DNA of 64,000 nt, from NCBI GenBank assembly GCA_016841605.1, contig JAENYV010000007.1, positions 62,001 to 126,000 on the forward strand, written 5' to 3'. Under the pieces are notes generated by a model, which did not search any database, was not told the DNA's origin, and saw only the letters and a list, made by a program, of their open reading frames with translations. The stretch comes from Dethiobacter alkaliphilus (GTDB lineage Bacteria; Bacillota; Dethiobacteria; DTU022; UBA8154). Below, piece after piece: positions 19,688 through 45,867 of the stretch. Each line of letters starts with the position of its first letter. The first letter of the stretch is position 1. Both the position numbers and the translations under genes were made by a program.

Positions 19688-19715
19688 TCTGACCAGATAA
19701 GGCAAAGGAGGCAGT

Positions 19716-20101: not shown

Positions 20102-20187
20102 TAGAAATATTAGCTTTGAAAATGACGAAGCAAAGAATTAGAGCCTCAAGGGCTTTTTTATTTTCTTAGAAAGGACGGTGAAGAAAT

Positions 20188-21360: not shown

Positions 21361-21370
21361 GAGAATCATT

Positions 21371-23317: not shown

Positions 23318-23348
23318 CCTTCGAAGTTAAAAAGGACGGTGAAGAAAT

Positions 23349-24035: not shown

Positions 24036-24186
24036 AGAAATAGGAGAAAAATATGAAGCTATAACAATGACGGGAACAGCGGAATGTATAGGAGAATTTG
24101 AAGTAACTTATGTTGAAACTCAGTCTTTAGAAAGTGGAGTAATTGTAAGAAACGAAACAGCAAGATTAATTCGTTTATTAAACTAA
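24028..24186 (+). CDS. Small phage protein (TTG start), overlapping upstream CDS
   Basis: gggagg SD, LFREIGEKYEAITMTGTAECIGEFEVTYVETQSLESGVIVRNETARLIRLLN. Confidence 0.4.
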   Translation: MFREIGEKYEAITMTGTAECIGEFEVTYVETQSLESGVIVRNETARLIRLLN

Positions 24187-24228
24187 CGAGGATGCGGTAG
24201 TTACACATTAACTGCCGTTTTTAATTTT

Positions 24229-24302
24229 CAAGAACCGTCCCAGGGGTGCCAGATTACGATGAAAGGGCGTCGCTAACCTCGGAGTGCTGGCATCGGTTCT
24301 TG
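24229..24302 (+). ncRNA. Candidate structured RNA / long hairpin
   Basis: CAAGAACCG (24229-24237) pairs with CGGTTCTTG (24294-24302); nested GTGCCAG (24246-24252) with CTGGCAT (24287-24293). Confidence 0.4.
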
Positions 24303-24313
24303 ACAAAATTTAG

Positions 24314-24339
24314 ACCGCCTACCTAAGCGGTTTTTTTTT
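24314..24339 (+). terminator. Rho-independent terminator
   Basis: accgc ctacctaa gcggt then T-run. Confidence 0.7.
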
Positions 24340-24454
24340 ATTAAATGGAGATATTTACACTAAAAAGATATAGCAAAATACCTTGCTTTGGAAGGATCTG
24401 CCTAATTTTTTGGCGAAAACTTTCTCCAACTATTAAGTGGGGGGAGGCCGGAAT

Positions 24455-25951
24455 GTGAAATATAAGGTGAAGATACTTGAAGAACCGTTTAATCTTGAGT
24501 CAGAAGAGCATGATATACTTCCAAGAGCAAGCACTGTCCTGGTAACGACAACAGATAATGAAGGGGAAACAAAAGAAGAAAAATATGGATTTGTTGATCG
24601 AGAAGAGGTTTATTCTCTCATAGATTCAGGACAAAAAATTAACCTGAATCATTGTTATATAGCAGGGTTTTCGCTCTCAGAATATAGGAAAAGAAAGGGC
24701 TTAGATGGATCAGTCTCAATTAATCTCTGCGATGCTCGAAACGCTTTTTTTGATACAGGAGAATCATTTGAACGAGCGATTGGCAGAGAAATATATCCAG
24801 ATAAAAATGTATCCAGTTACAAAAACGTAGATTTTATCGGTGCTAATTTTGGTGATGGAGACATAGATTTTAGCTATGCCAAGTTTGGTAAAGGAAACGT
24901 AAAATTTGGCGATGTAAAGTTTGGTGATGGAAACATAGTTTTTATCGGTACTGAATTTGGTAAAGGGGAAGTATATTTTAGTATAGCAAAGTTTGGTGAT
25001 GGAAACGTAGATTTTCGCTGGGCAAATTTTGGTGATGGAGACGTACTGTTTAACTTTGTTAACTTTGGTAAAGGAAAAGTACATTTTAGCGGAGCTAAGT
25101 TTGGAGAATTATATTTTGTAGTGCCTAAGTTTGGTGAGATAGAGATATTGTTTGACTGGACTTATTTTGGAATGGTAAAATTTTCAAACCTCAATATATT
25201 TGAAAAGGAGAACGGACAAACTAATAGGGTAACCATTGTTTTTTCTAACTGCATTTTTAAAGATAGTGTTGACATGCAATATGTAGAATGTAATGAACTG
25301 AGAATTTATAACTGCACAATTGAAAAAATAGTAAAGCTTCAAGGGTTAAAAGTTAATAGATTTTCTTTAACAGATACAATAAACTTCGGCCAGATTTTTA
25401 TTAGGTGGAAAGAAGAAAAATTATCAGAAGTATTAACAGGTGAATCGGCACAGGATAAAGCAGATCAACTGGTGATGCTTAAAGAAAATTTTCATTCCAT
25501 TGGCAGGTATGACGATGAAGATATGGCTTATGTCGAGTACAGACGGTCTAAACGGAAAGCAACTTGTGAAGAAGTACGCAAAGAAAAAGGGTACAAAAAA
25601 ATATCCGGAATTTATAAATATTTTTTAGTTTCTATGGACTGGCTGATAGATTGGCTGAGCATGTACGCTACTAACCCGTGGCGTGTGGCTTCTCGTATGG
25701 CGGTATTTTTTACGGTATTTACAGGAATATACTTGTTATTTCCAGAATTGATAATTAAAAGTGACAAGATATCTCAACCTTATTTTTGGAAGTGCATTAG
25801 CTACAGTATTGCCACCTTTTTAACTATTGGTTACGGGAACATTACTCCTTTAACATGGGTTGCTGTTGTTTTATCCGGTTTTGAGGGATTTCTAGGAGTA
25901 TTTTTAACTGCTTTATTCACAGTAGCTTTTGCCCGGAAAGTTTTACGTTAA
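24455..25951 (+). CDS. 12-residue-repeat solenoid-like domain fused to two-TM potassium-channel (Ion_trans_2-like) domain
   Basis: Tandem 'xFG(D/K)GxVxFxxA' repeats; pore motif 'SIATFLTIGYGNITPL' between hydrophobic helices. Confidence 0.8.
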   Translation: MKYKVKILEEPFNLESEEHDILPRASTVLVTTTDNEGETKEEKYGFVDREEVYSLIDSGQKINLNHCYIAGFSLSEYRKRKGLDGSVSINLCDARNAFFDTGESFERAIGREIYPDKNVSSYKNVDFIGANFGDGDIDFSYAKFGKGNVKFGDVKFGDGNIVFIGTEFGKGEVYFSIAKFGDGNVDFRWANFGDGDVLFNFVNFGKGKVHFSGAKFGELYFVVPKFGEIEILFDWTYFGMVKFSNLNIFEKENGQTNRVTIVFSNCIFKDSVDMQYVECNELRIYNCTIEKIVKLQGLKVNRFSLTDTINFGQIFIRWKEEKLSEVLTGESAQDKADQLVMLKENFHSIGRYDDEDMAYVEYRRSKRKATCEEVRKEKGYKKISGIYKYFLVSMDWLIDWLSMYATNPWRVASRMAVFFTVFTGIYLLFPELIIKSDKISQPYFWKCISYSIATFLTIGYGNITPLTWVAVVLSGFEGFLGVFLTALFTVAFARKVLR

Positions 25952-25986
25952 CAAGTTTTGTTTAGCATAATATTTAACCGCAATTT

Positions 25987-26008
25987 AACCGCCTTCGGGC
26001 GGTTTTTT
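25987..26008 (+). terminator. Rho-independent terminator
   Basis: AACCGCC ttcg GGCGGTT tttt. Confidence 0.75.
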
Positions 26009-26033
26009 ATTGTAAGATCTCTATCAAAAATGG

Positions 26034-26062
26034 TTGCTGGGAGGCGCTGTCCATGATATATT
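26034..26062 (+). promoter_or_regulatory. Putative sigma-A promoter upstream of dam
   Basis: TTGCTG-N17-TATATT. Confidence 0.5.
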
Positions 26063-26071
26063 ATTAATATA

Positions 26072-26083
26072 GAACATTAGTTC
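26072..26083 (+). promoter_or_regulatory. LexA (SOS/DinR-type) box
   Basis: GAACATTAGTTC = GAAC-N4-GTTC, just downstream of the promoter. Confidence 0.6.
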
Positions 26084-26103
26084 GTATAAGGAGATAAAAC
26101 ATC

Positions 26104-26856
26104 ATGAACAGCTTCTTTGCTTGGATAGGTGGTAAAAATTATCTTAAAAAGACTATCGCTGCCCGCATGCCCGATAGTTTTAGCCGTTACATCGAAGTTT
26201 TTGGCGGTGCTGCATGGGTTCTGTTCTATAAAGACAGGTATGCGGAAATGGAAATATACAACGATTACAACGGCGACCTCGTAAATTTATTTCGCTGTGT
26301 TAAATATCATTGCCCGGAGCTCCAGAGAGAACTATCATTTCTACTCAATTCAAGAGAGATTTTTAATGACTTTAAGCAGCAGTATACAAAAGGAATGACC
26401 GATATCCAGAGAGCTGCCCGGTTCTACTTTCTTTTGAAAGTTTCTTATGGGTCGAACGGCAGAAGTTACGGGTGCATAAAAAAAGACATCTTAGCGATGA
26501 CCCAATACTTGTCACGCATTGAAGAAAGGCTTTCTGCCGTTATCATCGAAAAGAAAGACTTTGAGGACCTTATCTCCGTGTATGATAGGCCGGACGCCTT
26601 CTTTTACGTAGACCCACCATACTATCAGGCCGAGAAGTATTATCAGATTGAGTTTAATGAAGATGACCACATTAGGTTGTATAGGAAGCTTTGCACAATA
26701 CAAGGTAAGTTTTTATTGAGTTACAACAATTGCGATTTAATAAAAGACCTGTACAAAGATTTTTATGTTGAAGGAATAACCAGGCAGCATAATTTGATGG
26801 CAAGATACAAAGGCGAGAATAACGACTATAAGGAATTGTTGATATGGAACTATTGA
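26104..26856 (+). CDS. Dam-family adenine-N6 DNA methyltransferase
   Basis: 'FFAWIGGKNYLKKTIAARMP', 'YIEVFGGAAWVLF', 'FFYVDPPYY'. Confidence 0.92.
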   Translation: MNSFFAWIGGKNYLKKTIAARMPDSFSRYIEVFGGAAWVLFYKDRYAEMEIYNDYNGDLVNLFRCVKYHCPELQRELSFLLNSREIFNDFKQQYTKGMTDIQRAARFYFLLKVSYGSNGRSYGCIKKDILAMTQYLSRIEERLSAVIIEKKDFEDLISVYDRPDAFFYVDPPYYQAEKYYQIEFNEDDHIRLYRKLCTIQGKFLLSYNNCDLIKDLYKDFYVEGITRQHNLMARYKGENNDYKELLIWNY

Positions 26857-26940
26857 AATTTGTTAATGACTTTTTTGGGAAATAGGGAGCCGAAAGGCTC
26901 TTTTTAATTTCAGCAAAAATACGGGGGTGAAATCGTAAAG

Positions 26941-27348
26941 ATGGAGTTTAAAGTAGGTCCATTGTTTAAGACGGTAGTAGCGTTGGGCGGCGGGGCCGCT
27001 TCTTACTTGTATGGGGGGTGGAGCTCGTTGCTGGGGATTCTTTTAGCATTTGTTGTTATTGATTACATTACTGGGTTTGTGGCGGCAGGGATAGAAGGAA
27101 AGTTATCCAGCGGAGTGGGACTTAAAGGTATAGCGAAGAAAATATTTATTTTCGTAATGGTGGCAGTGGCCCACTTGGCGGACCAGGCTATTGGCACTGA
27201 GATAATTAGGAATGCAGCGATTTTTTTCTACCTGGCAAATGAACTGCTAAGCATAACCGAAAATTCTGGACGTATTGGGCTTCCAGTGCCGCCAATGCTC
27301 ACTAAGGCGGTCGCCATCTTGCAAGATAAAGGTGAGGTGAATAAATGA
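26941..27348 (+). CDS. Phage holin (toxin secretion/phage lysis family)
   Basis: 'LLGILLAFVVIDYITGFVAAGIEGKLSSGVGLKGIAKKIFIFVMVAVAHLAD'. Confidence 0.92.
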   Translation: MEFKVGPLFKTVVALGGGAASYLYGGWSSLLGILLAFVVIDYITGFVAAGIEGKLSSGVGLKGIAKKIFIFVMVAVAHLADQAIGTEIIRNAAIFFYLANELLSITENSGRIGLPVPPMLTKAVAILQDKGEVNK

Positions 27349-28124
27349 TGCGTATATGTATAGACCCGGGGCATGGTGGTGCAGATCCGGGAGCCGTGGC
27401 TAACGGCCTTCGAGAAAAAGATTTGACGTTGGACATTGCTTTAAAACTCCGTGATTATCTCCTTACCGGTTGGCAGTGCGAGGTAAAGCTTACTCGTGAA
27501 ATTGATAAGTACCTTTCTCTATCTGACCGGTGCCGTATAGCAAACGACTGTGAAGCAGATTTATTTTATTCCGTCCATTGTAACGGGCATGCGAACACCG
27601 AGAAAAACGGTTGGGAAAGCTTTGTCCATTCGGCAACATCGGAGCAAACAAAGCAGTATCAAAAAGCTATCCATGGTAGTGTTTTTAACTATCTGAAAGG
27701 CTGGGGGACTTTAGACCGTGGTATGAAGAGCGCTAATTTCCAGGTGCTTCGCGAAACTGAAATGAGTGCGATTTTAGGAGAGTATTTATTTATAAGTGGC
27801 GATATAGATAGCCAAATTTTAAAAAATCCTGAAGCCCTGAACATTATGGCCGTATCTACGGCCACAGGGATAGCGAAAGCGCTTGATCTGGAGCAGGAAC
27901 CGAAGGGAAAAGCTTCAGGTCCCTTCCCAGATGTCCCTTCCGATCACTGGGCTGCAGGTGCTATCTCTTATGTGAGTGACCCGGAGCAGCTCATCATGGC
28001 AGGCTTTGGTGACGGAACTTTCCGACCGGACGAATCTGTTACCCGGGCGCAGTTGGCCGTTGTGGTGGAACGAGTGATGCGGGGGACAATTTCTGAAGCA
28101 ATTAAAGTATTAAAGACGAAGTAA
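27345..28124 (+). CDS. N-acetylmuramoyl-L-alanine amidase (Amidase_3) with C-terminal SLH domain; endolysin
   Basis: 'RICIDPGHGGADPGAVANGLREKDLTLDIALKL', 'FYSVHCNGH'; SLH 'FPDVPSDHWAAGAISYV...GFGDGTFRPDESVTRAQLAVVVERVM'. Confidence 0.92.
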   Translation: MMRICIDPGHGGADPGAVANGLREKDLTLDIALKLRDYLLTGWQCEVKLTREIDKYLSLSDRCRIANDCEADLFYSVHCNGHANTEKNGWESFVHSATSEQTKQYQKAIHGSVFNYLKGWGTLDRGMKSANFQVLRETEMSAILGEYLFISGDIDSQILKNPEALNIMAVSTATGIAKALDLEQEPKGKASGPFPDVPSDHWAAGAISYVSDPEQLIMAGFGDGTFRPDESVTRAQLAVVVERVMRGTISEAIKVLKTK

Positions 28125-28139
28125 ACAAGCATTTATGGG

Positions 28140-28166
28140 GCGGCTCCCAAAGGGGCCGCTTTTTTT
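28140..28166 (+). terminator. Rho-independent terminator
   Basis: GCGGCTCC caaa GGGGCCGC TTTTTTT. Confidence 0.75.
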
Positions 28167-28197
28167 GTTTGTATAAATTTGTCTTTTTCAGACAAAA

Positions 28198-28232
28198 ATA
28201 ATAAGAGACCGCCGCTCTAGGTCTCTTATTAT
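28198..28232. terminator. Perfect 13-bp inverted repeat, probable terminator of reverse-strand gene
   Basis: ATAATAAGAGACC gccgctcta GGTCTCTTATTAT. Confidence 0.5.
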
Positions 28233-28236
28233 CTAT

Positions 28237-28356
28237 TTATTTATTTTTCTTTTTATCTTTTCCGCCGACGTAAATCTTAAAGGCCCGCTTTCCGTAATCT
28301 CTAGCGTAAATTTTACTACCATCGGGAAGCTTTCTGCTTGCTCTAAGAATATACAT
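28237..28356 (-). CDS. Small basic phage protein, 39 aa (not in ORF track)
   Basis: Reverse-strand MYILRASRKLPDGSKIYARDYGKRAFKIYVGGKDKKKNK; more protein-like than the 28233-28415 track ORF. Confidence 0.55.
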   Translation of the reverse strand: MYILRASRKLPDGSKIYARDYGKRAFKIYVGGKDKKKNK

Positions 28357-28539
28357 TTAGAGTTTACCTTATCCTTTCTCCGGCGAAAATTTTTCTTGCC
28401 AGGGAAAGAAGGCAATGATACAATGTTGCTGATCAGGCGTTACATTGGAGCGGCTATTAATGCCGTCTAACCCTTTGAACCTTCGCCGGTAGGCTCACGA
28501 CAAGCCCGGCGATTTTTCTTTGCCACGGCTAATCCCTCC

Positions 28540-29019
28540 TTATACTGCTTGTTCTTGATGTTCAGATAGATATTCCCGTCTTTGAATTTCATCCAAAGAT
28601 ACATTAGCTCTTTTTACTAGATCATCCACCAGGTCATCAATGGCTACTGCGAAAACAGCTTGTCCCCGACGAAGTACGTCAAAAACAACTCCTGGATTAT
28701 TACCCAGGATGAAGACTGTTTCTCCGTCTGTAAATAGCGTTAGATCTGACAGCGGCTTTCCTATTTTAAAATCTTTTTCCAATACCTCGATAGCTTTTCT
28801 GACCTTCTGTAAGGAAAGGGCTCTCTGCCGTAATGCAACCACAGTACGAATTTGCACTAGGCTTAAAAAGTTAAATCGGTATTTTTTTTTATAGCCCACT
28901 TCCTCTACGCATGCCGGCACAATGATTCCTGTATCAATCCAATGACGAAGCTGCCTTTCCGTCACACCAGTGATGTTGACTACGGATTGTGTATTGTAAT
29001 AATTTTTGGTGCCAGCCAT
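28540..29019 (-). CDS. MerR-family transcriptional regulator
   Basis: 'YYNTQSVVNITGVTERQLRHWIDTGIIVPACVEEVGYKKKYRFNFLSLVQIRTVVALRQ'. Confidence 0.88.
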   Translation of the reverse strand: MAGTKNYYNTQSVVNITGVTERQLRHWIDTGIIVPACVEEVGYKKKYRFNFLSLVQIRTVVALRQRALSLQKVRKAIEVLEKDFKIGKPLSDLTLFTDGETVFILGNNPGVVFDVLRRGQAVFAVAIDDLVDDLVKRANVSLDEIQRREYLSEHQEQAV

Positions 29020-29211
29020 TTCATTAAACCTCCTTTCATTAATTTATTTAGATGGAACCATCCGTTTCTATGTTACATTATTAGTCCATTTTTGTCAATG
29101 ATTTCTGCTCTTGGAATTTATGTTCTTGTATTAAAATATTACCCGATTTTTTTATGTATTTAACTTTAAAGTTAGAAAGTTTTTGTTGATAGCTGAAAAG
29201 GTTAGGAGCTG

Positions 29212-29239
29212 CCGGGGCCTTCAGGCTCCGGTTTTTTTT
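29212..29239 (+). terminator. Rho-independent terminator
   Basis: CCGGGGCC ttca GGCTCCGG TTTTTTTT. Confidence 0.75.
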
Positions 29240-29287
29240 GTTTTAATGCAGGATTTTCCAACTCTCACGCAGAATTGGACAGGCATT

Positions 29288-29476
29288 ATGAAATGTAATA
29301 TCAAAAAGTATCGGGAAGACAAAGGACTCACGCAAAAACAATTGGCTCAACTCCTTGACACGAATGAAGCCTTGGTCAGTCGATGGGAAAGGGGGCGCCA
29401 ATTCCCGTCCCTTGAAAGCGCCTTAAAGCTGGCCGGTGTTTTTGGCTGCAAAGTAGAGGACTTATTTTCCTTGTAA
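29288..29476 (+). CDS. XRE-family HTH regulator
   Basis: MKCNIKKYREDKGLTQKQLAQLLDTNEALVSRWERGRQFPSLESALKLAGVFGCKVEDLF. Confidence 0.88.
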   Translation: MKCNIKKYREDKGLTQKQLAQLLDTNEALVSRWERGRQFPSLESALKLAGVFGCKVEDLFSL

Positions 29477-29552
29477 AAAAAAGCAAGCACGGACAGGCAA
29501 GTGACAAGCCTCCTGGCGCATATACTTTAATATGCGAAAGGGGGTTTTATTT

Positions 29553-30680
29553 ATGGCCAAGGAAAACAATGCCTTAGCTGAGGCTATAGAAACAATACGC
29601 CACATCTGGATCCACCGCAAAAGCAATACTATCCCTGCGGCCGTTTTTGATACGATTGATGCTCTCTATGGCCGGGAAAACATGAAGCCGCTCATCATTA
29701 AAACCAATAAACTTAAAACTGAATCCGGCTACCATTTTGTAATTAATTTACCGCCAGGCGTCTCTTACCGGGAATTTGCCAAAAAGGAGCACTACTTTGC
29801 CGATTCTACCGGTGGGGCGGTGCAGATTGAGAAGCAAGGCAAAGCCGTTTACCTCACGGTAATGACCGACGAATTGAAGAAATCTTATCCTTATACGTGG
29901 GACTATGCGCCATACGATAAAATGCATCTGCCGGTGCCGTTCGGATACTCTGCCCTGGGTCCCATTGTCCGTGACCTGGCAGATGCTCCGAATCTTATTA
30001 TTGCCGGACACCCAGGCGCTGGAAAAACAGCATTTATACATACGCTAGCCGTGTCGCTGCTTCTGGCCCGGGAGATATGCTTAATCATCATTGATTTAAA
30101 AGTCCTAGAGTTTGACTATCTGAGCGGTCATGGCCTGGTGATTACGGAGTTGGAAAAGGTCAAAGTGGTATTAACGGCTATTAACAAACAGCTCGATATG
30201 CGGCTTCAAGTCCTGCGTCGTGCTGGATGCGTCAAGCTGATAGACTACCGGGGGGATGATATGCCCTTCATCGTTTTAATCATTGATGAACTGGCGGAGA
30301 TGCAGGATGAAGAATGCCAGGAGATGCTTAACCGTATTTTACGCCTGGGTAGGGCCGCGGGGATCTGTGTAGTAGCTGCCACCCAGCGCCCGAGCTCAAC
30401 CCTGTTCAAAAAATTTGGCGATAGTAAAGCCATGTTTGCAGCAACTATGTGTTTCCACGTTCGGGACGAAGTTAACTCCAGGATGCTTCTGGATAACGAC
30501 CGGGCAGCACTCATTCCAGGCAATGTTCCCGGTAGAGCAATATTCCAGTGGGATAAAGAATTAGAAGTCCAAACCATGTATCTCCCGGTACCGGGTGAAG
30601 CGACCAATATTATACGTCACCTTGAAAGACGGGAGGTGAAATGGGTTGATCAACCACGTAAAATGTTACCACCGAGATAA
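29553..30680 (+). CDS. FtsK/SpoIIIE-like DNA translocase ATPase
   Basis: Walker A 'IIAGHPGAGKTAFIHT', Walker B 'FIVLIIDELAEM', 'AGICVVAATQRPS'. Confidence 0.92.
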   Translation: MAKENNALAEAIETIRHIWIHRKSNTIPAAVFDTIDALYGRENMKPLIIKTNKLKTESGYHFVINLPPGVSYREFAKKEHYFADSTGGAVQIEKQGKAVYLTVMTDELKKSYPYTWDYAPYDKMHLPVPFGYSALGPIVRDLADAPNLIIAGHPGAGKTAFIHTLAVSLLLAREICLIIIDLKVLEFDYLSGHGLVITELEKVKVVLTAINKQLDMRLQVLRRAGCVKLIDYRGDDMPFIVLIIDELAEMQDEECQEMLNRILRLGRAAGICVVAATQRPSSTLFKKFGDSKAMFAATMCFHVRDEVNSRMLLDNDRAALIPGNVPGRAIFQWDKELEVQTMYLPVPGEATNIIRHLERREVKWVDQPRKMLPPR

Positions 30681-31311
30681 TGCTATTTCGCAAGCCGTGG
30701 AGCGGCATGGGGTTTTAAATGCAGAACAGGTGGAGTCAATGTTCTTTAATGGGCTCAGTTGCGGTAAGCGTATTGCTCAGCGCAGACTTAAGCGGCTGCA
30801 TGATACAAAGCGTTTAAAGCGCGGCAGGATGACTTTTGACCAGCCATATTATTACTACTTAGGAAAAGCTCCCGGCCAGGTTGAGCACCGCTTGGGTGTT
30901 AATTGGGTGTATATATGGATTATAAAGCAACTAAAGTCCTGGGAAATTCTTCACTCTCTGGAGTATGAAGTTGATTATAAAACATTCAGGATGGATGCCT
31001 TGGTAACAGTTAGAAACAAAGTAACAGGAAAATTAAAGCTCTTCTATATCGAAATGGACCGAAGCGATAACAATTTCAACAAGGTTCAGCAGCTTAATCA
31101 GTTTTACCAGACGAAAAAATATTTATCTGCCTGGTGGGTGGCAACTGCGGATCGTTTTCCAGCTATTATCGTGGCCACAGAAACTGAAAAAAGATACCGG
31201 CACATTCAAACAAAGATAAAAGAGGAGAACGCCGGCGGCCTTGAATTCCAGCTTTACCTTTTATCTGAATTAAGGGAGGAGTGCTTAAGTGGAAGCGTCT
31301 ACAAAGCTTGA
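30646..31311 (+). CDS. Replication-relaxation (Replic_Relax)-like protein
   Basis: N-terminal winged-helix-like region, 'LFYIEMDRSDNNFNKVQQLNQFYQTKKYLSAWWVATADRFPAIIVATETEKRY'. Confidence 0.75.
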   Translation: MINHVKCYHRDNAISQAVERHGVLNAEQVESMFFNGLSCGKRIAQRRLKRLHDTKRLKRGRMTFDQPYYYYLGKAPGQVEHRLGVNWVYIWIIKQLKSWEILHSLEYEVDYKTFRMDALVTVRNKVTGKLKLFYIEMDRSDNNFNKVQQLNQFYQTKKYLSAWWVATADRFPAIIVATETEKRYRHIQTKIKEENAGGLEFQLYLLSELREECLSGSVYKA

Positions 31312-31549
31312 TGTTGTTATCGTTCAGCTGGTCCTGGTGGGAGCTGTAGGGTGGCTTATGTATTACCTTGCCGGAGCTCTGGGCCATAAGCAGCTGGCCG
31401 GAATGGTTAAGGCCACCGCTATTATGGTGATGATTACTATCGGCGGTGGGGCTTTATGGGAGTTTGTTTCCAGTGTGGCCACCAAGGTAAGCGCCATCGC
31501 TGAAGCAATTAATAATGTCACAGATAAAATCTTCTTTTTTGTGAAATAA
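31289..31549 (+). CDS. Small two-TM protein A (pilin/coat-like paralog pair)
   Basis: 'VVIVQLVLVGAVGWLMYYLAGALGHKQLAGMVKATAIMVMITIGGGALWEFV'. Confidence 0.65.
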   Translation: MEASTKLDVVIVQLVLVGAVGWLMYYLAGALGHKQLAGMVKATAIMVMITIGGGALWEFVSSVATKVSAIAEAINNVTDKIFFFVK

Positions 31550-31563
31550 AAGGAGGGTTTAGG

Positions 31564-31818
31564 GTGCAATATTATGCTACTCCGCTTACTGATATTGCCC
31601 TGCAGACATTTGGTATAGGTGGTCCTGCAGTGGTGCTTATCCAGTTAATGCTCATAGGTGTCGTTTCCTGGTTGCTAATGTATATTGTTAATGCTGCAGG
31701 TCAAGGCACAATTGGCAGTATGATCAAAGTTGCAGCAACGTTTATTTGTATTGGAATTATAACGGCGACAGCTTGGAAAACCGTTTTAGCTGTAGCGAAA
31801 ATAGCCGGATTATATTAA
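31564..31818 (+). CDS. Small two-TM protein B, paralog of 31289 CDS
   Basis: 'VVLIQLMLIGVVSWLLMYIVNAAGQGTIGSMIKVAATFICIGIITATAWKTV' aligns to protein A. Confidence 0.65.
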   Translation: MQYYATPLTDIALQTFGIGGPAVVLIQLMLIGVVSWLLMYIVNAAGQGTIGSMIKVAATFICIGIITATAWKTVLAVAKIAGLY

Positions 31819-31824
31819 AAATAC

Positions 31825-32002
31825 TTATACGTTTGCTTATACGCTGGTGTATTCGTTAAGTTATACGTCTAAACGAACAAGAAAGGGCTGAAAAATACGA
31901 TTTTTAACCGTTATTTTTCACGAAGAAGGAGGGAACGAGAGGGAACGACGACTCCAGGCGATGGTCCACAACACCCCCTGCAATCCCGGGGGGTAGATGT
32001 TG
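31825..32002. promoter_or_regulatory. Non-coding region with TTATACG repeats and several hairpins (possible origin/regulatory region)
   Basis: TTATACG at 31825, 31837, 31861; TGAAAAATA/TATTTTTCA (31889/31912); CAACACCCCC...GGGGGG..TGTTG (31969-32002). Confidence 0.4.
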
Positions 32003-32060
32003 GCAACACAGGATTATTATGGTAAGATTTTAAAAATACTAATGAAAAGGGGGTTTTAGT

Positions 32061-32588
32061 ATGGGTCTTTTTGGAAAATCAAAAGTAACATCAGAAGAGA
32101 AGCAAAAACAAAAAGAGGAAAAACAGCAACGTGCTTTAGAAAAACAACAGCAAAAAGAAGAGAAGTTAGAAAAACTAAGAATTAAAACAACTGCTATTTT
32201 TATTGATTATCTTGGCGGCCATCCAGATTTTGAAGTAAGAAAAGCTACTAATGTTATACTTAAATTCTCAGAAGACGGCAGCGCAATACTTATCACGAAT
32301 CTTTTTAATAAAGTTTTAGCAAGCCTTCCAAAAGGAGATATAGTTAATCTTGAACTTGACCGGGCCAGCAAAAGAAGTGCTGGCAAGGCAGCGGCGGGGG
32401 CAATTATTGGCGGAGTACTCACGGGAGGTCTGGGCTTACTTGCAGGGGCTGCTATTGGCGGTCGCAGAAAAGATGATAGTATTATTGTTATGACTGTTAA
32501 GTATGGTCCCGCAGAAGTAGAGCTTTACTTTAAAGATCAGAAGGATACTAAAAAGAAATATGGTCATGTGGCAGGGCTGCTAAAGTAA
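32061..32588 (+). CDS. Hypothetical protein with Gly/Ala-rich hydrophobic segment
   Basis: Good RBS; coiled N-terminus, 'AGAIIGGVLTGGLGLLAGAAIGGRRKDDSIIVMTVKYG'. Confidence 0.6.
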   Translation: MGLFGKSKVTSEEKQKQKEEKQQRALEKQQQKEEKLEKLRIKTTAIFIDYLGGHPDFEVRKATNVILKFSEDGSAILITNLFNKVLASLPKGDIVNLELDRASKRSAGKAAAGAIIGGVLTGGLGLLAGAAIGGRRKDDSIIVMTVKYGPAEVELYFKDQKDTKKKYGHVAGLLK

Positions 32589-32624
32589 ATTTAAAAAAAA
32601 TATTACTACGACGGATAGAAATTT

Positions 32625-32650
32625 AGCCCGTAAAAAACGGGCTTTTTTAT
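32625..32650 (+). terminator. Rho-independent terminator at prophage right end
   Basis: AGCCCGT aaaaa ACGGGCT TTTTT. Confidence 0.75.
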
Positions 32651-32789
32651 TTGCCGTCAAAAATTCGTCAAAAAAATTTTTCGTTTTTATACGTTTATGT
32701 TACTTTACCCCATTTAATAAAATGTAGATGAATGCCGATTTTATGGGATTTATTGTTGTTTGTTCAGTTTCATTCAGGTAGTAAAAAAT

Positions 32790-33203
32790 ATGGGCGTAAA
32801 ACCTTACCTGCTCAATTCTTCCCTTGTGGGGGTTGTCTCGCAACGTTTGATCCGCTTAAATTGTCCCCACTGCCTGGAAAGGGTAAACCCGGGTCCCGCA
32901 GAACTTTCCCTTTTCCAGGAAGCATGGGGAAAGGGGAAAAGAGAGATGCCGTTTTTTACGGAAGGCCGGGGATGTGTGCACTGCAATTATACCGGCTATC
33001 GGGGGCGAACCGCCATCCATGAACTAATGCCTTTAGATGAAACCATACGGGAACTTATTCAGGCATCCTGCAGCGCACAGCAAATTCGTAATTATGCAAT
33101 ATCTCAAGGCATGAAAACCCTGCTGCAGGACGGAATGGAGCGCGCGGCAAAGGGGGAGACGACCTTGCAGGAAGTAATCAGAGGAACCTATTATGGTTTT
33201 TAA
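32790..33203 (+). pseudogene. C-terminal fragment of GspE/PilB-type ATPase, truncated at prophage junction
   Basis: 'MGVKPYLLNSSLVGVVSQRLIRLNCPHCLE...RGCVHCNYTGYRGRTAIHELMPLDETIRELI...LLQDGMERAAKGETTLQEVIR' aligns to the C-terminus of the intact PilB at 42347; no Walker motifs. Confidence 0.88.
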
Positions 33204-34695: not shown

Positions 34696-35181
34696 GTGGA
34701 TTTATTGGGAATATTATCCACAGTTCGCAATTTTATTCAACAAAATAAAAGACTAGCCGTTCTTGTCAGTATCCTGTTAATTATCAGTTCAGCAGGTTTA
34801 CTTTTTTATATGGCTGAAAAAGGCAATAAAAATTATCCATCAATAGCTTCTCTACCGGAAAATAACGCCGTAACTTCACCTCAAGATAATATTAATGAAG
34901 CTGATAATGAAGAAGAAGTTGAAGTTTTACCGCAAGATGAGCGGATTGATGAAGAAAATCTCTTGCAGCCCCCTGATCCTTTTGCATCTCCTCCCCAACT
35001 GATGGGAGTTCTTTTGGACGGTGAAGAGGAGGCTTTGGCCATAATTGAAGCTGGAGGTCGGGCCTATATCACAGCTGAGGGGGAAACGGTAGCCGGTCTC
35101 TGGAAAGTTGAAGAAATTTACAGGGATAAAGTTAAAATGGTCTTGGGAGACGACGAAGTAGTTCTTTTTTTAGGCAGGTGA
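34696..35181 (+). CDS. PilP/GspC-like T4P assembly protein
   Basis: N-terminal TM; 'LMGVLLDGEEEALAIIEAGGRAYITAEGETVAGLWKVEEIYRDKVKMVLGDDEVVLFLG'; operon position. Confidence 0.6.
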   Translation: MDLLGILSTVRNFIQQNKRLAVLVSILLIISSAGLLFYMAEKGNKNYPSIASLPENNAVTSPQDNINEADNEEEVEVLPQDERIDEENLLQPPDPFASPPQLMGVLLDGEEEALAIIEAGGRAYITAEGETVAGLWKVEEIYRDKVKMVLGDDEVVLFLGR

Positions 35182-35235
35182 TTTAAGCTGAAAAAAATTT
35201 CGGCAAACATACGGCAAAAATTTATTTTATTAATT

Positions 35236-36900
35236 TTGCTTTTTCTGACGTTGTTTCCCATTTTTCTTTGGACTGCATCCGGAAGCGTTCTAGCTGCCGC
35301 TCAGGAGAATACCGAAGAATTGCCTCTTTATTATACGGTCAAATTGGGCGAAACGGTCTATAGTATCTCCAGGAAACTAGGCGTGGAGAAATCAGAGATT
35401 ATTAGATTAAATAAACTGGGTAACAACATGATCTATGAGGGACAAAAATTGCTGATCAAAGAAGAAATTATGGAGGAGGAAGAAGAAGAAGAGGTCAAGA
35501 AAGAAGAAGTTACGGCGAACAGGATTGCCGCTATAGACAAAGAAAATAATAAACCGGAAGCAGAACCGGAACCGGCCCTACTGTCCAACGAGCAGGAGAG
35601 AACCTCTTCCTTTGTCCTGGATGTGCGTGAGGCTGATCTACGGGATGTGCTTTCCGCACTGGCCATCAGAATGGAGAGGACAATAATTTTCATTGATGAC
35701 CCGGTAAGGGTTACCTTTAGCATTGAAGACGTTACCCCCCAGGTTGCTCTGAGACTGCTTCTGCAAAACGAAGGATTTGATTATCTGGAAGACGACGATT
35801 TCATCCTGGTAGGCACTCCGGATAAGTTAAAAAATGATTACTTCGACCATTTAGCTCTGACCAGGTTTAATTTACAATATATCAGTTCCCCTGATATTAC
35901 CGGCTTACTTGAACAGCTGGGAGTTGATTTGCAAGTATTTTCTATTGAGACGAATCCCCGGACGATCTGGGCTCAGGGGACACCACGGGAACTGGGACAG
36001 CTGCGGGAGATTATCGTTACGCTGGATCGCCCGGAAAATGCCGATCCGGAAACGGCAAGTTCTCTGGAACGCTTTGACCTCCAGTATTTAAATGCCGAAC
36101 TGGTAGGATTAGTAATCGATTATTTTGCTATTTCCGCAAGGGTTATTAGCTTTCCGGCAAATCCGCAGGTTCTTTGGGCCCAGGGGGCACCCGCTGCTTT
36201 GGAACGCCTGAAGGAGTTGATTATTACACTGGACAGACCTGAAAACTCCGGACTCGAAGTAAAGCTATCAATGACACAGTTCAAGTTAAATCATCTCTCT
36301 GCGGAAAAAATTCGGCTTGTTCTCGAGGAAGCAGGTATCCCCGGAGAATATATTATTACGGATGAAACATCCCAGCTTCTGTGGGTTTACGGTTCGCCTC
36401 AATACATAGAAATTGCCCGGGAGATTATTTCCACAATCGATCTCCCGGAAAATTCAGAACAACTGCCGCATATTTTTATTTACCAACTCCAAAACATCAG
36501 CGCTGTTGACGCTTCGGCCAGAATGGATGAAATGGGAATATTTAACGGAGTTAAAACGATGACCTTCAGTTACCCCGAAATTAGCCATGAGTTGCTGGTT
36601 ATCTGTCCTCCCCATTTAACAGAACAGGTCTACAGCGCTCTTGGCCTGCTCGACGAGGCACGCCAGCGGATTCGCATGCCTGTGGACTCCGCCGACAAAA
36701 TGAGCACTCTAGCAGCGAGACGGGAATTACTTTCGCAACTTACCGGCGTTGCCATCAGCAGAATGTTTATCTCAAGCAATCTCTCCGGGGATAGTGAAAA
36801 TCCTTACTATATACTCTGGGTGGAGGAAACGCCCGATAAGATCCAGCAAGTTCGGGATATGGTGGAAATTATTGATTCACCGCGATCCGGACGAGAATAG
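35236..36900 (+). CDS. LysM + secretin N-domain repeat protein lacking secretin barrel
   Basis: LysM 'YTVKLGETVYSISRKLGVEKSEIIRLNKLGNNMIYEGQKLLI'; N0/STN 'LDVREADLRDVLSALAIRMERTIIF'; repeated modules ending 'IWAQGTPRELGQLREIIVTLDRPEN'. Confidence 0.8.
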   Translation: MLFLTLFPIFLWTASGSVLAAAQENTEELPLYYTVKLGETVYSISRKLGVEKSEIIRLNKLGNNMIYEGQKLLIKEEIMEEEEEEEVKKEEVTANRIAAIDKENNKPEAEPEPALLSNEQERTSSFVLDVREADLRDVLSALAIRMERTIIFIDDPVRVTFSIEDVTPQVALRLLLQNEGFDYLEDDDFILVGTPDKLKNDYFDHLALTRFNLQYISSPDITGLLEQLGVDLQVFSIETNPRTIWAQGTPRELGQLREIIVTLDRPENADPETASSLERFDLQYLNAELVGLVIDYFAISARVISFPANPQVLWAQGAPAALERLKELIITLDRPENSGLEVKLSMTQFKLNHLSAEKIRLVLEEAGIPGEYIITDETSQLLWVYGSPQYIEIAREIISTIDLPENSEQLPHIFIYQLQNISAVDASARMDEMGIFNGVKTMTFSYPEISHELLVICPPHLTEQVYSALGLLDEARQRIRMPVDSADKMSTLAARRELLSQLTGVAISRMFISSNLSGDSENPYYILWVEETPDKIQQVRDMVEIIDSPRSGRE

Positions 36901-36941
36901 CTTTTCATGATAGATGATTAGGCTTTTTTAGAAAGGAGTAG

Positions 36942-38093
36942 ATGTCTTTGTCTTCGGACAGGATGACAAGTCGTAACCAACAGAGCACATATACGGCTTC
37001 AGCCGATCAGCTTTTACGTGCAACAGTGGAACTGGGCGGTTCGGATTTGCACCTTACCGTAGGGGTCCCGCCCCTGGCCCGTATCAACGGGGAACTTACC
37101 GCCCTGGATTTTCCTATTATCTATCCCAGGGATATTAAAGCCTTATTATATTCGGTTCTCGACCAACAGCAACTTCAACGGCTCCAGGAACACTGGGAGC
37201 TTGATTTCTCCTACTCTGTCTCCGGAGTTGCCCGTTTTCGCGGCAACATTATGTTCCAACGCAGCAGTATGTCCGCGGTTTTTCGGGTTGTCCCCTTTGA
37301 CATCCCTGACTTCCATAAACTGGGACTACCGCGGGCTATAAGATCCATTTGCGACCTGACCCGCGGCCTGGTCCTGGTGACCGGGCCGACAGGAAGCGGC
37401 AAATCCACCACCCTGGCGGCCCTGCTTAACATCATTAACCGGGAACGCCGTGAAAATATCGTCACGATCGAGGATCCCATCGAATTTTTACATAAACATA
37501 TTAAATCTACAATCAGGCAACGGGAAGTGGGTATTGACACCCATTCCTTTGCGGATGCTCTGCGCCACGTTTTGCGTCAGGACCCGGACGTAATCCTTAT
37601 CGGTGAGATGCGCGACCTGGATAGCATTGCTATCGCCCTGACCGCAGCAGAAACAGGCCACCTGGTCCTCTCCACCCTTCATACCCAGACAGCCCCCCTG
37701 ACCGTGAGCCGTATCGTGGATGTTTTTCAGGACCACCGCCGTGAACAGGTGCGGCAGCAGCTTGCCAATTCTCTGCGGGCCGTTGTTTGCCAACAGCTTG
37801 TCCCCACTACCGACGGAAAAGGAAGAGTCGCGGTCGTGGAATATATGGTGGATACCCCGGCAGTCCGTAACATGATCCGGGAAGGAAAGGATCATCAGCT
37901 CTACAGCGCCATCCAGACCGGTCAGGACCAGGGGATGCAGACTCTTGATAAAGCCCTTTCCGAGCTTCATAAAAACGGAAATATTACACGGGAGGTTGCC
38001 CTGGAATATTGTGTGGACCGGGCTGAGATGGAACGGCTTTTGGGTCCGGGAGGCCCCGAATTAACCCCGCGTACCAGTTCATGGCGCGGTTGA
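36942..38093 (+). CDS. pilT: Type IV pilus retraction ATPase PilT
   Basis: 'GGSDLHLTVGVPPLARINGEL', 'LVLVTGPTGSGKSTTLAALL', 'HVLRQDPDVILIGEMRDLDSIAIALTAAETGHLVLSTLHT'. Confidence 0.95.
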   Translation: MSLSSDRMTSRNQQSTYTASADQLLRATVELGGSDLHLTVGVPPLARINGELTALDFPIIYPRDIKALLYSVLDQQQLQRLQEHWELDFSYSVSGVARFRGNIMFQRSSMSAVFRVVPFDIPDFHKLGLPRAIRSICDLTRGLVLVTGPTGSGKSTTLAALLNIINRERRENIVTIEDPIEFLHKHIKSTIRQREVGIDTHSFADALRHVLRQDPDVILIGEMRDLDSIAIALTAAETGHLVLSTLHTQTAPLTVSRIVDVFQDHRREQVRQQLANSLRAVVCQQLVPTTDGKGRVAVVEYMVDTPAVRNMIREGKDHQLYSAIQTGQDQGMQTLDKALSELHKNGNITREVALEYCVDRAEMERLLGPGGPELTPRTSSWRG

Positions 38094-38166
38094 AAAGGAA
38101 ACATTTTGCCTCACGCGACCGGAGTACCGTATTTATGCATATACTTTTTCCAAGGGGTGATGCATC

Positions 38167-39372
38167 TTGGCTCTTTTTGCCTACGAGGTAATTACCAATA
38201 CAGGCGAGTTGCTCAAAGGACAATTGGAGGCAGCGGATGAATACGCCGTCTCCAGTAACCTGCGCAAAATGGGGCATACGGTCATCGAGATTAAGGAAAT
38301 GAGGCCTTCTTCTTTTCAGAATTTATTTAGAAAACCCGTTAAAGCCTCGAACGGTGACCTGAGCCTTTTCAGCCGCCAGCTGGCAGCTATGCTGGATGCC
38401 GGTGTGCCGCTAACCCGCTCACTTTTTACCCTCAGCATCCAGACAAACAACAAGGGCCTGGGACGGATCGTGGGAGAAATCGCTCGAAATGTGGAGGGCG
38501 GCATGAACTTTACCGATGCCGTCAGCGCTTATCCCCATATCTTCTCCTCTCTTTTTACCGGTATGATTAAAGCAGGGGAGGTAGGGGGGACCCTTCAGGA
38601 AGCCCTGGTGCGCCTGGCCGATCAGTTGCAAAAAGACAAATTTTTGCGTGACAGTTTACGCTCCGCCACTTTTTATCCGGCTACTATCGGTATATTTTCT
38701 ATTTTCCTGTTGCTGGGAATGCTTTTTTTTCTTGTTCCAATTTTTATAGGCTTTTTTCCTCAGGGTATCGAACTTCCTGTTCCCACAAAAATTGTGGTGT
38801 TCCTGTCAAATTCCCTGCGCAGTTCGTGGTATCTCTGGTTTATAGCAGTCTTCCTGGTGCTGATGCTTTTTCGCTCCTACCTGCACAGTACACTGGGTAA
38901 GCATCAGTGGGACCGGATAAAATTTCGCATTCCTCTTTTCGGCCCGCTGCTCCACCGGGCTGTGATCGCCCGCTTTTCCCGCACACTATCCACTCTTTTC
39001 GGCGGAGGTATTCCTGTTGTGCAGGCCTTGGAAGCTGCAGGAGCGGCCACAGGGAATATTCTGGTGGAGGAAGCGGTGAAAGAAGCAGCCGAAAAGGTCC
39101 AGGAAGGAAAAAGCATTGCCGGCCCCCTGGGCGAAAGCCCCGTATTTCCGCCGATGGTAACCCAGATGGTCTCCATCGGTGAAGAGACAGGTTCTGTGCC
39201 TGAACTTTTAAACCGTATTGCCGACTTTTATGAAGATGAGGTTGCTGTCATGACCAAAGGACTAACGGGGATGATCGAACCGGTCATGCTTATTATTGTC
39301 GGGTTATCAGTGGGAACTATGCTGCTGGCCCTCTATATGCCGATCTTTTCCGTCATAACCCAGGGGATGTGA
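38167..39372 (+). CDS. pilC: Type IV pilus inner-membrane platform protein PilC/GspF
   Basis: 'LFSRQLAAMLDAGVPLTRSLFTL', 'MIKAGEVGGTLQEAL', 'MVSIGEETGSVPELL'. Confidence 0.95.
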   Translation: MALFAYEVITNTGELLKGQLEAADEYAVSSNLRKMGHTVIEIKEMRPSSFQNLFRKPVKASNGDLSLFSRQLAAMLDAGVPLTRSLFTLSIQTNNKGLGRIVGEIARNVEGGMNFTDAVSAYPHIFSSLFTGMIKAGEVGGTLQEALVRLADQLQKDKFLRDSLRSATFYPATIGIFSIFLLLGMLFFLVPIFIGFFPQGIELPVPTKIVVFLSNSLRSSWYLWFIAVFLVLMLFRSYLHSTLGKHQWDRIKFRIPLFGPLLHRAVIARFSRTLSTLFGGGIPVVQALEAAGAATGNILVEEAVKEAAEKVQEGKSIAGPLGESPVFPPMVTQMVSIGEETGSVPELLNRIADFYEDEVAVMTKGLTGMIEPVMLIIVGLSVGTMLLALYMPIFSVITQGM

Positions 39373-40109
39373 TAACCTTGCCGGGATATCCGGAAGAAGA
39401 GGCCAGGGGTAACGGGAACTTGCCTGACCTGGAAGAGGCTGTGCGCTTTTATCTGCAAGATAAAAGCGACGAAAGCCAAAGTACCGTTATCAAAGCCGGA
39501 AGCGGCCTGGTTCATCATTTTGTCCGCCTGTATACAGCCGGGCAAGAAGACGAGGATTTGCTGCAGTCCGGGTACGAAGGCCTGCTGAAAGCCCTGCAGC
39601 GCTACGACTCTGCTCGCGGCATCCGTTTTTCCACCTATGCTTCATCCTGCATTATCGGCGAAATTCGTCACCAACTGCGGTGGAAAAATGCTTTTGACCG
39701 TCCCAAATGGGTCGTGGAATTGCAGGGACGCATCCTGGCTGCGGTGGAAAAATTGCTGCAGGAAAATGGCCGTCATCCCACCTTGCAGGAGATCTCCTCC
39801 CTAGTCAACATTCGCGAAGAAGGGGTTCAGGAAGCTCTAAGGGCCGGGCGTGTCCCTTTTGATGAAGTGGATACTAAACAGATAAGAAGCTTGCATCATG
39901 AAAGCTTCCACTTGCCTATGGAAGACCGCATCCTGCTTCAGCAGGCCTTACAGCATCTGAGCAGTATGCAGCGGCGGGTCATTTACCTTCTTTTCTATTA
40001 CGACCTGACGCAGAGCGAGGCAGCACAAAAACTGGGTACCACTCAGCGCCAGATATCCCGGCTACTGCATAAAAGCCTGGAGTCCCTGGCACGTTTTTTA
40101 TCCAAATAG
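39369..40109 (+). CDS. Sigma-70 family (group 3, SigB/F/G-like) sigma factor embedded in pilus operon
   Basis: Region 2 'DLLQSGYEGLLKALQRYDSARGIRFSTYASSCIIGEIRHQLR'; region 4 'LSSMQRRVIYLLFYYDLTQSEAAQKLGTTQRQISRLLHKSLESL'. Confidence 0.9.
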   Translation: MITLPGYPEEEARGNGNLPDLEEAVRFYLQDKSDESQSTVIKAGSGLVHHFVRLYTAGQEDEDLLQSGYEGLLKALQRYDSARGIRFSTYASSCIIGEIRHQLRWKNAFDRPKWVVELQGRILAAVEKLLQENGRHPTLQEISSLVNIREEGVQEALRAGRVPFDEVDTKQIRSLHHESFHLPMEDRILLQQALQHLSSMQRRVIYLLFYYDLTQSEAAQKLGTTQRQISRLLHKSLESLARFLSK

Positions 40110-40113
40110 GGGA

Positions 40114-41142
40114 GTGTACCATGTGGGTTTTCAATTAAGAAAAAGCAGCATCGCTGGAGTGGATATTGATTACGGTGAACTTCGTGTCGTGGAGCTGGGG
40201 GGCAGAAGAAACGCTCCTGAATTGCTGAACTGGGGGCGCGTGCAGCTTCCGGCAGAGGCTGTGGAGGGCGGTGTTATCCTGCAACCTCAGGCGGTCGGTG
40301 ATGCCCTGGCGCGTCTCTGGAACGAACAAAGAATAAAGAGCCGCGACGTTATTTTTGGTGTTTCCAACCAGAGCGTTATTGTCCGATTCGCCACCTTTCC
40401 CCAGGTACCCGAGGGGAAACTGCAAAATATGATTCGCTACCAGGCCCGGGATTTTCTCCCCGTATCTCTGGAAAATTCCATTATGGATTTTTCTGTCGTC
40501 GGCACGGTCAACAAGGGCAAGGAGAAGCTGCTGGAGGTCCTGCTGGTAGTTGCCCAACGGGAGTTGATCAACCATTATCTAACTGCCTGCAACCTGTCCA
40601 GGTTAAAAATTAGGGATATACATGTCACCTCTCTGGCTCTCACCGAATTGTTGCCTGCCGGGGCTCCGGAAGGAGCTACAGCCATACTTAGCCTGGGGAA
40701 TGGGGCAAGCAATTTCCTGCTGACCGCGGAAGAGACACCGCGGCTGGCAAGATATCTATCTTCCGGCTTAAAGGAGGCGGCAGAAAAGCTGGGATGCTCC
40801 CTGAAGGAAGTTGTGCAGCAAGCAGGAGCTGCTCCCGGAGAACCTTTCCCCGACGTTTTTGTTGACTGGGCGGAAACGATGGTGGGAGAGGTACGCTCTT
40901 CCATTCAGTATTATCAGTCTCAACCGGAGGCTGTCCCCGTAGTGCGGCTTATTCTCGTTGGACGGGGGGCACGTATCAAAGGTTTTGCCGGTCAAATGGA
41001 AAAAATTTTCGGCATTCCTGTTTCCCTTGCCGACCCGATGCAATTACTAAAAAAAGCGCCCCATAATTGTACCGGCTTTCTTAACGAGGGAACTGATTAT
41101 GGTGTCGCCTTCGCCCTGGCTCGCGGCGGACTGGGGGAATAG
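40114..41142 (+). CDS. pilM: Type IV pilus assembly protein PilM
   Basis: 'SSIAGVDIDYGELRVVELGG', 'MIRYQARDFLPVSLENSIMDF', 'VRSSIQYYQSQPEAVPVVRLILVGRGARIKGF'. Confidence 0.93.
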   Translation: MYHVGFQLRKSSIAGVDIDYGELRVVELGGRRNAPELLNWGRVQLPAEAVEGGVILQPQAVGDALARLWNEQRIKSRDVIFGVSNQSVIVRFATFPQVPEGKLQNMIRYQARDFLPVSLENSIMDFSVVGTVNKGKEKLLEVLLVVAQRELINHYLTACNLSRLKIRDIHVTSLALTELLPAGAPEGATAILSLGNGASNFLLTAEETPRLARYLSSGLKEAAEKLGCSLKEVVQQAGAAPGEPFPDVFVDWAETMVGEVRSSIQYYQSQPEAVPVVRLILVGRGARIKGFAGQMEKIFGIPVSLADPMQLLKKAPHNCTGFLNEGTDYGVAFALARGGLGE

Positions 41143-41144
41143 CT

Positions 41145-41726
41145 GTGAAAACAATCAGTCTGTTGCCTCCCGAAATAAAAGTATCCCAGCGTACCGCCCG
41201 AATAAAAGCGATCCTGTTACTGATAGGTACCGGCTTCCTTCTGCTTTTTTTCATTATCAACGGTTGTATCGCGCTTGTGGCCCAGGGCATCGAAAGAGAA
41301 GCACAGCAAATCAGGCAGCAAAGGTCTTTACTTCAGCAGGAAATTGAGACCCTGCAGGAATATACAGCCATGCAGAAACGGGTAGAAACAGTGGGAAAAC
41401 TGTTGGAACAGGCCCTGGGGACGGAACCCAATTGGCCGGACCTGCTGACGGCTTTGAGCCTGGAAGTATCGCCTCATATACAGCTTATAAATCTTTCAGT
41501 ATCTTATGAAGGCGATGAACATGAACTCTTCCTGAGAGGCATTGCTAGAGGCCACGATGCCGTAGCCTCTCTGATGGAAGGGCTGGATATGCTGCCGCAG
41601 TTGGAGAATATTTTCTGCCGTTTCACCTCCAAAACTGAAAACATGGAGCGACTTGGAGTCCAGTTCGAGATTGAGGCCTCAATCTTGCCCGGCGAGACTG
41701 CCGGCAGCAGAAAGGAGCTGCCTTGA
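41145..41726 (+). CDS. pilN: PilN-like protein
   Basis: N-terminal 'ISLLPPEIK', single TM, coiled coil, operon order. Confidence 0.85.
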   Translation: MKTISLLPPEIKVSQRTARIKAILLLIGTGFLLLFFIINGCIALVAQGIEREAQQIRQQRSLLQQEIETLQEYTAMQKRVETVGKLLEQALGTEPNWPDLLTALSLEVSPHIQLINLSVSYEGDEHELFLRGIARGHDAVASLMEGLDMLPQLENIFCRFTSKTENMERLGVQFEIEASILPGETAGSRKELP

Positions 41727-42271
41727 TTTTGCAAAATATGGTAATATTTTTGCGAAAAAAATTTCCCTTGTTTCTAACGATAATAGTGCTGCTATCTTTT
41801 TTGCTGCTTTCTTTAAACCGTTTTGTCTCCTTAAAAACCATGCGGGAAAAGCTTCGGCTTGAAGAACAAGCCCTGGTTAAAGAACAGAAGCAGCTCCTTC
41901 TCCTGCGGCAATTGGAGGAAGAGGGCCCCAGCTTTCTCCAGCGTCTGGAGCTTTTTGACAATCTTATACCAGAAAAAACTGCGGAGTATCAGATGGTGAG
42001 CCACCTGCAAAAAATTGCCTCTGTAAGCGGAATTCACCTGCTCCAGGTACAATTTGACACTGAAATTTCTTCTGACGCCTACATGGAGATACCTATGGAT
42101 CTTTCACTAAAGGGCTCTTTCCGGGCCTTACTGCAAATGCTGCACACCCTGCGGGAGGGAGAACGGGCATTCAGGGTTGACAAGATAGAGATCACCGGTG
42201 AAGAATCCGGAATTAGGGTAAATCTCAGAGTCAGCGCGTTTTACCGCGACAAGAAAGAGAGCGCAAGTTGA
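41723..42271 (+). CDS. pilO: PilO-like protein
   Basis: TM + coiled coil, 'LIPEKTAEYQMVSHLQKIASVSGIHLLQVQF', operon order. Confidence 0.8.
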   Translation: MILQNMVIFLRKKFPLFLTIIVLLSFLLLSLNRFVSLKTMREKLRLEEQALVKEQKQLLLLRQLEEEGPSFLQRLELFDNLIPEKTAEYQMVSHLQKIASVSGIHLLQVQFDTEISSDAYMEIPMDLSLKGSFRALLQMLHTLREGERAFRVDKIEITGEESGIRVNLRVSAFYRDKKESAS

Positions 42272-42346
42272 CAATTAACCGGTCCTAAACAAGGGAAGAT
42301 AAAGAAACTGTCCCCCCTGGCCGGCCAGAACAGGTGGTGTATATTA

Positions 42347-44026: not shown

Positions 44027-44061
44027 GGTAAAAAGAGTAACAACCTGCAGGAGACGATAAC

Positions 44062-45243: not shown

Positions 45244-45311
45244 TCTGCAGATTACATAAAATACTTTATTTCGACATAATAGGTATTAATAAGGGAAAGA
45301 GGGGGTAACAA

Positions 45312-45779: not shown

Positions 45780-45867
45780 AAAACAACACAAAATCACCCA
45801 TCAATGAAAGATGTTTTTCAAAAATAAACATAGGATGTTAATTTTTTAAAGTTTTTTTGGAAAAAGT

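Follow-up and report, generated by a model that had tools for sequence, protein, structure and literature searches.

Two prophages with integrases of different classes very probably divide one pilus motor gene of Dethiobacter alkaliphilus

Why does a pilus ATPase gene that lacks its front part stand directly behind the end of a prophage? The question is raised by the window, the whole 64-kb stretch of DNA analysed here (contig C21, positions 62001-126000; the genome comprises 4.07 Mb in 36 contigs). Plain coordinates below refer to the window, and those with the prefix C21 to the contig.

The right end of a prophage adjoins the C-terminal part of a pilus ATPase gene

The open reading frame at 32760-33203 encodes the last ~138 amino acids of a GspE/PilB ATPase, with homology starting at the codons of MGVKPYL. 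The gene is named pilB2 here, because its rejoined product (see below) fell short of the NCBIfam cut-offs for GspE, PilB and ComGA alike. The following features were located around the junction.

32625..32643, + strand: hairpin resembling an intrinsic terminator, near the right end of the prophage (prophage 2)
32655..32678, + strand: arm-type direct repeats CGTCAAAAATT and CGTCAAAAAAATT, probable arm sites of the integrase; counterparts on the left arm, at C21:20825
32788..32806, + strand: attR core ATATGGGCGTAAAACCTTA of prophage 2; identical attL copy outside the window at C21:20762-20780
32788..33203, + strand: C-terminal piece of pilB2, the third of three (416 bp, ~138 aa), placed by tblastn with PilB and by in-frame joining
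42347..44026, + strand: intact paralogue pilB (559 aa; MshEN and T2SSE domains)

A preliminary description of this DNA had named a terminator at the prophage end, an AT-rich stretch with repeats, a GspE/PilB C-terminal part beginning at MGVKPYL and an intact pilB at 42347. All four were confirmed, the AT-rich repeat sequence being CGTCAAAAATTCGTCAAAAAAATT at 32655-32678. The repeat CGTCAAAAATT had one exact match in the 64-kb window, where 0.10 were expected, and it recurred on the other arm of prophage 2. An Rfam search near the junction returned nothing.

The adjoining piece of the gene lies 74 kb upstream, next to a tyrosine integrase

When the genome itself was searched with PilB, the missing neighbour piece of pilB2 was found at C21:20434-20787, in the same orientation and 74 kb upstream. 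The 3' end of this left fragment (from C21:20762) and the window from 32788 have the 19-mer ATATGGGCGTAAAACCTTA in common. Each arm also carried the 20-mer CGTCAAAAATTCGTCAAAAA, at about 60 and 130 bp inward from the ends. The prophage and its integrase were delimited as follows.

1..32787, no strand assigned: part of prophage 2 within the window; the whole element runs from C21:20762 to C21:94788 (about 74,025 bp)
C21:20860-21939 (= L009:8860-9939), upstream of the window: tyrosine integrase of prophage 2 (359 aa), directly inside the left end

The integrase contained the Pfam domains PF00589 and PF14657 (arm-binding) and a SAM-like domain, and PHROGs assigned terminase, portal, head, tail, tape measure and endolysin genes to the element. 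An integrase with an arm-binding domain, identical core and arm repeats, and structural and lysis genes together mark prophage 2 as a temperate phage of the tyrosine-integrase type. Judged by its gene content, it is a tailed prophage with all main modules.

The proposal that a prophage was integrated in a pilus ATPase gene was thus borne out by the integrase at the left end, the upstream PilB fragment, the 19-bp att core and the relatives in which the gene is intact and syntenic (see below). The left junction had been expected upstream of the window, together with an integrase and a short repeat of the sequence around 32785-32810, and all three were found there. The expected N-terminal PilB fragment was recovered in part: a fragment does stand at the left end, but it starts at Walker A and does not comprise the whole N-terminal part. 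A simple attR with a single left fragment was therefore ruled out, because the left fragment is itself headless.

A second prophage with a large serine integrase is inserted at Walker A

The left fragment of pilB2 begins inside Walker A, and a different set of phage genes precedes it. The N-terminal 167 codons of the gene were found on another contig, C4, from 48759; they end with VTGPT, and the gene of a large serine integrase with Resolvase, Recombinase and zinc-ribbon domains (Pfam) follows right behind. The two junctions of this second element (prophage 1) have only AC in common, as expected of a serine integrase. When the two phage-side halves were rejoined, the attP read CGCAGTTTCGTTCC-CTGCGCT-AC-TGCTCCC-GGAACGAAACTGCG, with a perfect 14-bp inverted repeat and symmetric spacing; its dyad score was 20/30, against a null mean of 7.9. 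The three integrase domains, the 2-bp core AC and the inverted symmetry of attP identify prophage 1 as a phage of the serine-integrase type.

The halves of attP lie on different contigs and become symmetric once joined, which by itself points to a link between C4 and C21. The order of the late genes agrees with this: terminase, portal and head-morphogenesis genes are the last on C4, and the first on C21 are scaffold-like, major capsid and tail genes. The contig ends themselves, 55 bp on C4 and 54 bp on C21, have matches in prophage 2 at two places 556 bp apart, so that a repeated module of ~610 bp would explain why the assembly broke there. This module apparently occurs in both prophages; the copy in prophage 2 (23593-24202) is part of a tail gene, and that in prophage 1 stands between head genes. 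We infer that the ends on the two contigs of this draft genome belong to one element, in which case prophage 1 would span ~57.5 kb plus a short gap.

The three pieces rejoin to an open pilB2 gene that is undivided in relatives

The pieces of 501, 319 and 416 bp joined to 1236 bp without an internal stop, giving 411 amino acids; this open frame is restorable by precise excision only with both elements gone. A T2SSE domain (PF00437) covered residues 21-405 of the product, and the N-terminal MshEN domain that the intact pilB has was absent. Undivided copies of pilB2, with 69-74% identity, were found in the nearest relatives, from the same genus and family. It lies between pilD and the type IV pilus (T4P) operon in G002 and G014, and after pilD in G001. 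The genome with the split gene has 4.07 Mb, compared with about 2.1 and 2.4 Mb in two congeners. The operon stands downstream of pilB2 in the window.

34696..46349, + strand: T4P operon with a secretin-like gene, pilT, pilC, a sigma factor, pilM, pilN, pilO, pilB and a pilin gene

Its gene order was the same in G002 and G014. The sigma factor gene between pilC and pilM (39369-40109) was recognised by eye as sigma-70-family-like, and its position was also kept in both relatives.

The dN of the pilB2 pieces against the relatives was the same as between intact copies, so that this measure gave neither a sign of decay nor an age signal. Such undecayed pieces would fit a recent insertion and continued selection equally well.

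These data also bear on whether the arrangement could be an artefact of assembly, or a set of decayed pseudogene fragments without any link to prophage integration. The genome is a draft, both C4 and C21 end inside prophage 1, and their join is the one that had to be deduced. An artefact would, however, have to account for in-frame joining, for arm sites that occur in pairs, for integrases where they are expected and for a 19-bp core that is in register, as well as for a symmetric attP divided between the two contigs. Parallels were moreover found in other genomes, and in two of these a single contig carries both junctions. We consider this explanation extremely improbable.

We concluded that the feature in the window is very probably the attR of a 74-kb tyrosine-integrase phage in pilB2, a gene also split at Walker A by a ~57.5-kb serine-integrase phage. 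Prophage 2 would have been inserted by its tyrosine integrase at the DMGVKPY codons of a short PilB/ComGA-like ATPase gene. For prophage 1, the large serine integrase would have acted within the threonine codon of Walker A, at AC (GPT^GSGK). The proposed order on the chromosome is as follows.

pilD - pilB2 (N-terminal piece) - prophage 1 - pilB2 (middle piece) - prophage 2 - pilB2 (C-terminal piece) - T4P operon

The lysogen would have no working PilB2, because each piece lacks essential motifs: the N-terminal piece is separated from the remainder of Walker A, and the C-terminal domain is no longer attached. The preliminary description had further supposed that precise excision of the prophage in the window would restore a second ATPase. 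This failed, because prophage 1 also splits the gene at Walker A and separates the middle piece from the N terminus; both prophages would have to excise to restore PilB2. The loss may matter little in this genome, because the intact pilB paralogue and comEC remain.

Restoration by double excision could in principle be a regulated event, in which conditional excision of both prophages (active lysogeny) restores PilB2 like the Listeria comK prophage or the sigK-skin elements. The preliminary description had already drawn the comparison with comK, which for pilB2 is an analogy. The sigK-skin elements have a developmental role. Those of Clostridia resemble prophage 1 in that a large serine recombinase is placed in conserved coding sequence; the integrases are 44-49% identical, and the integrase family takes in the sigK-skin elements, although these differ in target. 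In the Listeria monocytogenes comK prophage (A118/10403S; discussed in PMC7029219), restoration of comK by one excision was demonstrated. That case is like pilB2 in that a gene of the DNA-uptake pathway is interrupted and could be restored by precise excision, but two excisions would be needed for pilB2. In-frame joints, pieces free of decay and two prophages that each carry an integrase and full structural genes would fit a switch. Such joints, however, also result from insertion alone, undecayed pieces also from recent insertion, and the gene is uninterrupted in relatives; the two excisions would moreover have to be independent. A switch therefore appears quite improbable to us.

Related serine integrases occupy Walker A codons of pilus motor genes

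In a tree of 92 integrases, the integrase of prophage 1 belonged to a six-member clade with a support of 100, and the sigK-skin integrases formed a separate group. All six elements of the clade lie in a pilus motor gene (pilB or pilT), and every junction seen was at Walker A. In the Syntrophomonadaceae MAG G078 (PWHX01000082.1), a related integrase stands at the same codons of a full-length pilB, the remainder of which was found on a separate contig, where an HTH gene of the same type precedes it. In Clostridium sp. Cult1 (NZ_PPXW01000001.1), the N part of pilB (2521981-2522958) and its C part (2565753-2566466) have the integrase between them, and in G718 the two parts are 69 kb apart. The IMG/VR record UViG_2901126171 begins with a pilB C part, and UViG_2913810304 abuts a pilT N part; only one junction is in each record. 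In the four complete cases, in-frame joining gave an attB that encodes VTGPTG[SC]GK[ST]TTLY, with AC at the centre.

Cult1 and G718, unlike the window genome, yielded no further intact pilB. Among the other genomes of the phylum that were sampled, no relative of the serine integrase was found at E<=1e-150. Candidate breaks near Walker A in the relatives G064, G047, G046 and G038 were rejected as contig ends, which left G078 as the only real second insertion among the relatives considered. The reading frame of the Cult1 integrase (L042:10001-11656) stops a few codons short of where the match ends, which makes its C-terminus slightly shorter than those of its relatives. A related HTH regulator gene was seen opposite the integrase end in the Walker A elements examined (L009:7990-8394; L033:267-767; the starts of L169 and L170), and this shared position suggests a conserved element layout.

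Integrases of other lineages are also found in pilus and DNA-uptake genes

On the single contig of G433, comEC is split by an element that has the same arm repeats, a 17-bp core and a tyrosine integrase sharing 60% identity with the one of prophage 2: the DUF4131 part adjoins the integrase, and the Competence domain is ~42 kb away. In UViG_2823502015_000007, a relative with 48% identity lies in pilB at the LRQ-DPD codons. Further relatives occupy a spoIID-like gene, a gene of the AIM24 family and the end of guaB (spoIID and guaB were named by eye). No relative of the tyrosine integrase was found in the other 97 genomes of the class.

Distant serine integrases (32-36% identity) were found in provirus records together with ATPase fragments. 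The cut was at Walker A in UViG_3300011841_000040 and in UViG_2791354918_000002 (a comGA-like gene), and at ALTGH in UViG_3300017651_000084. In UViG_2617271079_000001, a tyrosine-integrase element of ~52 kb interrupts a comGA-like gene at HDPD. The gene is interrupted again 90 bp beyond this cut, at ALTGH, and a serine integrase is nearby. The record thus adds a second motor gene that is split twice; its C-terminal piece lies outside the record. Further scans of IMG/VR with comGA- and pilB-type fragments yielded no more recognisable split records (the hit L253 was left out). At L241, a GspE-like match adjoins serine integrases.

Motor genes as possible preferred docking sites

The target would be favoured through conservation of its codons across hosts, and the site preference may be simply this. 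In its strict form, such neutral docking means that the phages gain nothing from the loss of PilB2 or of pili. All sites are indeed in highly conserved motifs (Walker A, HDPD, ALTGH and MGVKPY), other relatives use other conserved genes (sigK, spoIID-like, guaB), and the window genome keeps another pilB. On the other hand, the same gene family was chosen by several unrelated integrase lineages, and comEC was split by a close relative of the window integrase. The main text of a survey of large serine recombinases likewise reports target genes enriched for DNA competence genes, though it names no pilus ATPase target to set beside the Walker A clade (Durrant et al. 2022, PMC10083194). We regard neutral docking as possible, if somewhat doubtful.

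Alternatively, a disabled pilus or uptake motor might protect the prophage from removal by transformation, or might exclude pilus-dependent phages; such an advantage is proposed here from what is known of other species. Transformation can delete prophages, and in the parts of two reports used here this is given as the reason for mobile elements in comYC, comFA, comK, comM and radC (PMC4774983; PMC12637031). The first of these (Croucher et al. 2016) deals with prophages that lie in comYC, comFA, comK and radC, and with elements that lie in comM. These are like the present elements in that integrases target transformation genes and related integrases use the orthologous site across species. They differ in their target genes, and the same parts of that report describe no PilB, PilT or ComGA motor and no gene with two prophages.

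Prophages that break competence genes, comGA included, are already known. SpST71A is reported at bp 509 of comGA in Staphylococcus pseudintermedius ST71 (PMC7029219), and phiAI14-Pro1 is a further comGA case in this species (PMC8297860). As in pilB2, the disrupted gene encodes a PilB-family ATPase of a competence/T4P system and the element is a tailed prophage, but SpST71A is one prophage with one cut. In a partial search of the literature, with survey supplements outside its range, we found no double split of such a gene by two integrase classes, no Walker A clade and no pilT target, which suggests that these three are new.

We tentatively offer a wider generalisation that we think unlikely to hold in full: phages of several integrase lineages may have converged on pilB, pilT and comGA as a docking hotspot, one serine clade being dedicated to Walker A, and stacked insertions may act as a double lock on pilus or uptake function that only double excision would open. 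Independently of this, the analysis provides integrases that form one clade, have mapped att sites and were observed in type IV pilus motor genes only; it also provides two motor genes that each hold two phages. Whether prophages disarm the DNA-uptake machinery of their hosts thereby becomes testable beyond streptococci and Listeria. Since the Walker A codons are nearly invariant, integrases acting there could serve as integration tools for hard-to-engineer Clostridia.

Further genes of prophage 2 in the window

In the tail region, the gene at 21329-23317 (662 aa) appeared by eye to fuse a glycosidase-like part to a PHP-type part (HTHTTRSDGS). A 504-aa protein encoded at 24437-25951 has, also by eye, pentapeptide-like repeats followed by a C-terminal potassium-channel-like TIGYG motif. 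Near the right end (29532-31818), an FtsK/SpoIIIE-type ATPase and a Replic_Relax protein (Pfam) are encoded together with two ORFs for small membrane proteins; plasmids or conjugative elements are the more usual place for such a set.
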